A stretch of DNA of 64,000 nucleotides from a virus: IMG/VR virus record IMGVR_UViG_3300047678_000094, positions 1 through 64,000 of that record. One strand, given 5' to 3'. Positions within the stretch are counted from its first letter, which is position 1, and each line of letters opens with the position of its first letter. The position numbers and the translations under genes were made by a program. Below, one piece after another: positions 8,042-8,927 of this stretch. Below the pieces are notes generated by a model. It searched no databases, had not been told where the DNA came from, and was given only the letters and a program-made list of their open reading frames with translations.

Positions 8042-8049
8042 TATAAATA
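8042..8049 (+). promoter_or_regulatory. T4-type late promoter before tmRNA
   Basis: An exact TATAAATA box, the full core of T4 late promoters, lies just upstream of the tmRNA acceptor piece. Transcription would start about six bases downstream, near 8055. This suggests the tmRNA is made, at least partly, late in infection. Confidence 0.6.
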
Positions 8050-8054
8050 ACGGT

Positions 8055-8383
8055 AATGATAGTGAACTGAGGAATATTAAACCAAGCAACACGAGGGTGC
8101 AAATCCCTCCGTCTCCACCAAAAGCCCATACACCTTGGTTGATCGCCAGGTCGTTTCTTGATGGCGCCGCAAGGCTAAGGGGATGGGTTTTTGATGGGGA
8201 CGATTTTAGGTTCGACTGTTTGTAAATAGGTTCTGAGGCTATCCGGATGTTCTCCGTTAAACGAACAAAAACTAGAAATGCAACGCAAGTCGCAAACGAT
8301 AACGAAGATTTCTCAGCAATGAAAATTGCTGCCTAATCTTTAGGTATCCGGAGACGCCAGGTTCTCTGTAAAATAAACCTGGC
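8055..8383 (+). ncRNA. ssrA: Two-piece (circularly permuted) tmRNA
   Basis: The acceptor piece comes first: T arm GAGGG-TGCAAAT-CCCTC (8093-8109), then CGTCTCC and ACCA (8110-8120). A 75-base intervening segment (8121-8195) follows, whose ends form a 9-bp helix. The coding piece starts with GGGGACG (8196-8202), which pairs with CGTCTCC to complete the tRNA-like acceptor, followed by TTTTAGGTTCGAC. After AGTC the tag frame runs GCA 8292 to TAA 8334-8336, encoding ANDNEDFSAMKIAA. A P2-like pairing TGTTTG (8217) with CAAGCA (8083) would hold the two pieces together. A GCCAGGTT/AACCTGGC hairpin (8356-8383) ends the gene. The product tags stalled nascent chains during trans-translation. Confidence 0.93.
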
Positions 8384-8414: not shown

Positions 8415-8927
8415 ATGAGAAAAGCACTTATCGCTCTCGCAGCCGCACTCACCCTTTCAGCACCAGCATTCGCTCAAGAAGTGTCAGTTGGGTCAACCTC
8501 AAAGGGATCAACCTTTGCAAACGTCTCTAACGTTTGGTCTCTCGAAAACAAAGTTGAAGTTATTGGGGAAGTTCGTCTCTCAAGCAAAAACGCAAACACT
8601 GTCAAGGTTGGTGTTCAACGCAATTTCGTTGAAGTTGGTCCGGTGTCACTTGGTGGACGTCTGAATTTCGTTCAAGGTTTCGGCAAAACAAGTTGGTCAG
8701 GTTATTCTGTCGAACCAACCGCGTCCTTCAAATATGATAAAGCTGCTGTAACAGTTGGCTATGAGATTGGAGACTCATTCTCTTCTCGCCATAAACAGGA
8801 TGTTGAAACAGCTAAAGTTACTGTGATGTATCCATTCACCTTTGGTAACTTCGGTCTTCAATATGAAAACGAACGTGGTGATCTGAAGCAAGAATCGGTT
8901 TCACTAGTCTACTCACTCAAGCATTAA
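8415..8927 (+). CDS. Exported beta-barrel-like protein (porin-like)
   Basis: 170 residues. A textbook signal peptide (charged MRK, hydrophobic core, cleavage after APAFA at residue 20) precedes about 150 residues of alternating polar/hydrophobic beta strands with tight turns, as in small outer-membrane barrels. The last residues (SLVYSLKH) do not end in the usual aromatic residue. It is odd cargo for a lytic phage. Altering the host surface, for example to block superinfection, would explain it, but that is inference. It lies directly downstream of the tmRNA. Confidence 0.65.
   Translation: MRKALIALAAALTLSAPAFAQEVSVGSTSKGSTFANVSNVWSLENKVEVIGEVRLSSKNANTVKVGVQRNFVEVGPVSLGGRLNFVQGFGKTSWSGYSVEPTASFKYDKAAVTVGYEIGDSFSSRHKQDVETAKVTVMYPFTFGNFGLQYENERGDLKQESVSLVYSLKH

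Follow-up and report, generated by a model that had tools for sequence, protein, structure and literature searches.

The window analysed here, a stretch of 64,000 nucleotides that forms part of a 97,448-base IMG/VR virus record, contains at 8058-8336 (+) a gene that Rfam matches confirm as a circularly permuted, alpha-type tmRNA gene, intact-looking and carried by a T4-like phage. We consider it quite likely that this is an intact, late-transcribed tmRNA, that its spacer is a site in which other genes can nest and that the window holds the empty allele of this site, with flanks as they would be after homing. The features of the locus are as follows.

8042..8049, +: T4-type late promoter box TATAAATA, exact consensus match
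8058..8120, +: acceptor piece, including the 3' strand of a P2-type helix (RF04321 alignment, cofold)
8093-8109, +: T arm GAGGG-TGCAAAT-CCCTC, part of the acceptor piece
8110-8116, +: acceptor 3' strand CGTCTCC, followed by ACCA at 8117-8120
8121..8195, +: intervening spacer of 75 nt with its own closing helix and without a gene-sized ORF (fold)
8196..8279, +: 5' part of the coding piece, P2 and PK1 region (RF04321; sister identity from TTCGAC)
8196-8202, +: acceptor 5' strand GGGGACG
8211-8216, +: TTCGAC
8280..8336, +: tag reading frame, probably ATQVANDNEDFSAMKIAA-stop, with GCA 8280 as resume codon
8356..8383, +: 3' hairpin GCCAGGTT/AACCTGGC of the coding piece (fold)

Identity and structure of the tmRNA gene

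The permuted tmRNA model RF04321 (tmRNA_permuted) was matched over its whole length with 86.9 bits (E 2.8e-15; cut-off 47 bits), and RF01849 (alpha_tmRNA) scored the gene at 51.7 bits, barely over its cut-off of 50 bits. These matches, together with the order of the parts, bear out a preliminary description made from the letters alone, which had seen a phage-encoded, permuted, alpha-type tmRNA with encoded CCA and had proposed such Rfam models as a check. According to the fold, the cofold and the Rfam alignment, all elements named in it are present where it had placed them. The acceptor strands GGGGACG and CGTCTCC pair at 7/7 positions across the 75 nt, including G3-U70 (alanine identity), and when the acceptor piece was cofolded with the beginning of the coding piece, the spacer being omitted, the acceptor stem, T arm and a long P2-type helix formed. 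The 75-base spacer stood as described, but folding predicts a closing helix of 8 bp rather than the stated 9 (-28.1 kcal/mol; z of about -2.9 relative to mononucleotide shuffles). The hairpin at 8356-8383 could also double as a terminator.

From TTCGAC onward, 61/61 bases are identical between the window and two sister phages, L002 and L004. A chance origin can be excluded, given the E value of RF04321, the above-cut-off score of RF01849 and the conservation of this core. It is also very improbable that the gene is a decaying or non-functional copy acquired from an alphaproteobacterial host. Its tag and 3' part do diverge from those of the sisters (score 86.9 versus 108.3 bits), and ARAGORN, when run on the window, made no tmRNA call at 8058-8336. 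However, the acceptor stem, T arm and G3-U70 are complete, the tag ORF is intact, the core is fully kept and the locus recurs, with its neighbours, in the sister phages. Comparison of the window tmRNA DNA with phage records by similarity gave zero matches. Permuted tmRNAs are not rare in environmental phages, contrary to what the preliminary description had supposed: each of two RNA patterns gave at least 120 matches in IMG/VR, and 53 of 133 distinct phage tmRNAs were of the two-piece form in a previous survey (PMC9004378).

Expression, processing, charging and function of the window tmRNA are inferred from its sequence. Host RNase P would cut before GGGGACG, 3' processing would end at the encoded CCA and the spacer would be thrown away, while the two mature pieces would remain paired via the acceptor stem and P2. 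The host AlaRS would charge the molecule via G3-U70, and host SmpB would deliver it to stalled ribosomes, which would lead to an Ala-Ala-ended tag of probably 18 aa. A host SmpB is assumed because a search for an SmpB gene across the phage record found none.

Phage and locus context

Homologues of baseplate wedge, baseplate tail tube cap and helicase loader genes, as well as of portal, major head protein, tail sheath, SbcCD-like and terminase genes, were found in the record and identify the virus as a T4-like myophage. One baseplate protein had its best matches in Sinorhizobium phiM12-type and Caulobacter Cr30 phages; an alphaproteobacterial host would fit these matches and the alpha-type tmRNA, which is suggestive only. 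The gene 3' of the tmRNA (8415-8927), which has a signal-peptide-like start and no PHROG match, stays adjacent to the tmRNA in L002 and L004. A tRNA-Asn at 1812-1900 was called by ARAGORN only, the Rfam tRNA model having no match above cut-off there. In the same phage record, a GOLLD RNA (RF02032, 200.7 bits) adjoins a tRNA cluster (L126:10479-10951; record 94479-94951), and in phage DSS3_MAL1 (L386:3-466) a GOLLD RNA lies immediately before its permuted tmRNA.

Resume codon and tag

Read from GCA 8280, the frame gives ATQVANDNEDFSAMKIAA (18 aa) with a stop ending at 8336; read from GCA 8292, in frame and 12 bases further on, it gives ANDNEDFSAMKIAA (14 codons). The first codon is favoured by its AAAT context, by alignment with sisters L002, L003 and L004, in which the resume codon follows AAAT at the position equivalent to GCA 8280, and by the layout of 18-19-aa tags of the '...AMKIAA/AMKVAA' type in other phages (L156, L109, L030, L322 and L021), which resembles that of the window. 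Thus, the tag is probably 18 aa long rather than the 14 codons first proposed; its Ala-Ala end, also proposed, was recovered by reading the frame through to Ala-Ala-stop at 8336. The KIAA ending had further been thought to alter degradation of tagged proteins. This is not implied, since residues other than Leu precede Ala-Ala in other phage tags as well: the 147 distinct phage tags among the matches listed end in LAA (123), IAA (12), MAA (5), VAA (4) and QAA (3), a count in which a few tags may be wrong because they were chosen by a scoring rule favouring AA endings.

The segment GCAATGAAAATTGC (8316-8329, in the tag frame) is common to other AMKIAA/AMKVAA tags. The AMKIA codons of these tags are GCAAT-GAAA-ATTGC, possibly a small hairpin that may constrain the end of the tag. 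The tag and the 3' part of the window gene, including the 3' hairpin, differ from those of the sisters despite the identical core, which, judged by this sequence comparison, is a module swap.

A probable late promoter upstream of phage tmRNAs

The late-type box reported upstream of the gene is indeed the exact TATAAATA, and the same box is general among relatives. Among the matches listed, it was found upstream of the tmRNA in 99 of 150 distinct related phage regions, compared with 27 of 2,646 control windows taken at the same loci (about 1%), and where up to one mismatch was allowed, boxes lay mostly 73-80 bases upstream of the CCA end. Such genes should therefore in general be transcribed late, and the phage tmRNA is probably a late gene, as suggested by the consensus match of a box at fixed position. 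This expectation contrasts with the early promoter inferred for the tmRNA of phage Melnitz (PMC9004378). Late timing would bear on the purpose of a phage tmRNA.

HNH endonuclease genes in tmRNA spacers

The window spacer was checked for an endonuclease ORF and has none. Sister phage L004, a relative located via the helicase loader, has a spacer of 495 nt between an acceptor piece ending at 381 and a coding piece starting at 877, in which an ORF (435-875) with its own TATAAATA box encodes an HNH protein. Profile search assigned this protein to phrog_655 homing endonuclease (E 3.5e-14); its Pfam HNH score of 20.9 bits is slightly below the cut-off of 21.4, and the H, N and H residues are invariant in the spacer family. 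In a first search with the L004 protein, relatives lay within permuted tmRNA spacers in 8/8 contigs. A wider search reached about 20 contigs, and both tmRNA pieces were found for 14 distinct alleles (L004 included). In all 14, the acceptor strands are 464-642 nt apart and pair at 7/7 positions in 10 different compensated versions; because each pairing was chosen as the best available within a range of about 30 bases, no single case counts as independent proof. In nearly all 14 alleles the two insert ends are complementary, and many of these tmRNA genes are still recognised by RF04321 or RF01849 with the insert in place.

The spacer endonucleases are under purifying selection (pooled pN/pS 0.31), and in the protein tree they nearly make up a single clade that excludes most freestanding relatives, with exact placement unsure on account of long branches. 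The nearest matches in cultured phages (S-SKS1, S-B05 and S-SRM01) adjoin ordinary genes at the loci examined, and a search of bacterial genomes gave one weak match (44% over 107 aa) at a locus without tmRNA signal, and so provided no sign of such spacer enzymes beyond phages. Two HNH endonuclease genes were seen next to permuted tmRNA genes: one immediately before, and outside, a beta-type permuted tmRNA (L180:2501-3150) and one on the opposite strand (L189:2098-2659).

The TATAAATA box precedes the endonuclease ORF in nearly all alleles and is degenerate in L170 and L190. In most of these genes (L004:382-437 and 12 other leaders) it lies in a short inverted repeat before the ribosome-binding site. 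Single leader sequences fold into a hairpin around the box, and consensus folding of the 5' leader alignment gave zero pairs. Readthrough RNA could fold the repeat, which a transcript starting at the box would be unable to do. As the spacer would be removed in maturation, genes nested there would leave the tmRNA unharmed.

Small reading frames in other spacers

Spacers of at least 130 nt were found in 30 of 186 distinct complete genes, among the matches listed in the RNA-pattern samples. In the pattern-found phage genes with spacers of 130-300 nt, an ORF took up 60% or more of the length in 26 of 29 spacers, versus 10-13% in dinucleotide shuffles; below 100 nt, enrichment over shuffles was absent. 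Five families of spacer ORFs (MKNPLV..., MEIIWH..., MSKNKY..., MDEVIL... and MHDVVT...) gave pN/pS of 0.2-0.4, and in 18 of 43 cases the stop codon was the TGA of a TTTTTGA-T-GGGG junction. A relative of the MEIIWH family is the annotated gene immediately before the tmRNA of cultured Melnitz, whose own 142-nt spacer (L385:1186-1327) holds a 54-aa ORF that by eye resembles those of L361 and L339. The Melnitz record lists zero proteins in this spacer; the frame continues into the coding piece, with its stop beyond the presumed cut. Spacer ORFs of MKNPLV, L253 (a zinc ribbon), L341 and L303, taken one each, had zero matches in phage records.

From these sequence patterns, other phages look to keep small, selectively constrained ORFs in their tmRNA spacers. 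We give little credence to the idea that the long-spacer ORFs are chance frames or assembly artefacts, which could draw on the short length of many of them (34-60 aa) and on the origin of most from metagenome contigs. Against it, spacers are filled far beyond shuffles, families recur under purifying selection, independent contigs share one endonuclease family, and a spacer ORF is also present in Melnitz, which is a cultured phage.

Homing or ordinary recombination at the window locus

The window equals L004 exactly over 24 bases before ACCA and 15 bases after the spacer, whereas L002 differs at 9 of those 24 and 5 of those 15 positions. Homing with short co-conversion could leave such flanks, which match those of the endonuclease allele. 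We regard it as somewhat probable that the spacer is a general nesting site, used by a dedicated tmRNA-targeting HNH clade, and that the window flanks record a homing event. A possible, if rather doubtful, alternative is that the window has an ordinary two-piece tmRNA and that its match to L004 results from ordinary T4-like phage recombination unrelated to homing. T4-like phages recombine freely, the window shows another swap (tag and 3' hairpin), and the mosaic is known from one comparison (window, L004 and L002), for which a single recombination event suffices. However, the bases shared with L004 lie directly against the insertion site on either side, and around them L004 resembles L002 instead (next gene, L004 versus L002, 483/525 identical; L004 versus window, 345/522). 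In addition, the enzymes match homing endonuclease profiles, and their family occupies one type of site in many different tmRNA genes.

Homing endonucleases need harmless refuges for insertion, usually introns, inteins or intergenic gaps. If the nesting-site reading is true, the spacer, cut out by the normal tRNA-processing machinery, would add another refuge, in which a mobile gene sits harmlessly in an RNA gene, comparable to a self-splicing intron but with no need for splicing. Such a refuge may partly explain the persistence of permuted tmRNA genes in phages. Annotation can miss long-spacer tmRNA genes and their small proteins, as ARAGORN did the window gene and the Melnitz record its spacer ORF. 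Melnitz, which has a cultured marine host (OM43 strain H5P1), allows direct testing of the spacer-gene idea.

Comparison with known systems

The window RNA belongs to an already described class, the phage two-piece tmRNAs, which include those of Methylophilales phage Melnitz and Pelagibacter phage Mosig (PMC9004378). These are likewise phage-encoded, permuted and alpha-type by Rfam, but come from other phages and have other tags. Melnitz, like the window, has a TATAAATA box before its tmRNA; unlike the window, it has a 142-nt spacer with an ORF, unmentioned in the text of that paper, and a glutamine riboswitch after the tmRNA, whereas an Rfam scan of the window gave none. The two-piece tmRNA of alphaproteobacteria (RF01849, merged in RF04321) shares with the window gene the order of parts, the tRNA-like domain and the resume/tag layout. 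It differs in that the window gene is phage-borne with a late-promoter box and its relatives have endonuclease or small genes in their spacers.

An endonuclease gene within a removed part of a tmRNA gene also has a precedent, a LAGLIDADG endonuclease gene in a group I intron, described in the tmRNA database paper (PMC11915505). That intron is self-splicing and lies in the T loop of the intron form of tmRNA, whereas the L004-type gene encodes an HNH enzyme and occupies the spacer of a permuted gene; for permuted spacers, the same paper, which has 11,946 curated permuted tmRNAs, described one tRNA gene and one repeat. The freestanding HNH homing endonucleases of T4-like phages and cyanophages (for example, Synechococcus phage S-SKS1) have an N-terminal HNH region homologous to that of the spacer enzymes, but those examined lie between ordinary genes, whereas the tmRNA-spacer enzymes form almost one clade. 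A full-text literature search, which covered few subscription papers, found zero reports of permuted tmRNA spacers containing protein genes or endonucleases. The class of tmRNA loci with spacer-nested genes looks to be a new variant, and the window its empty form.
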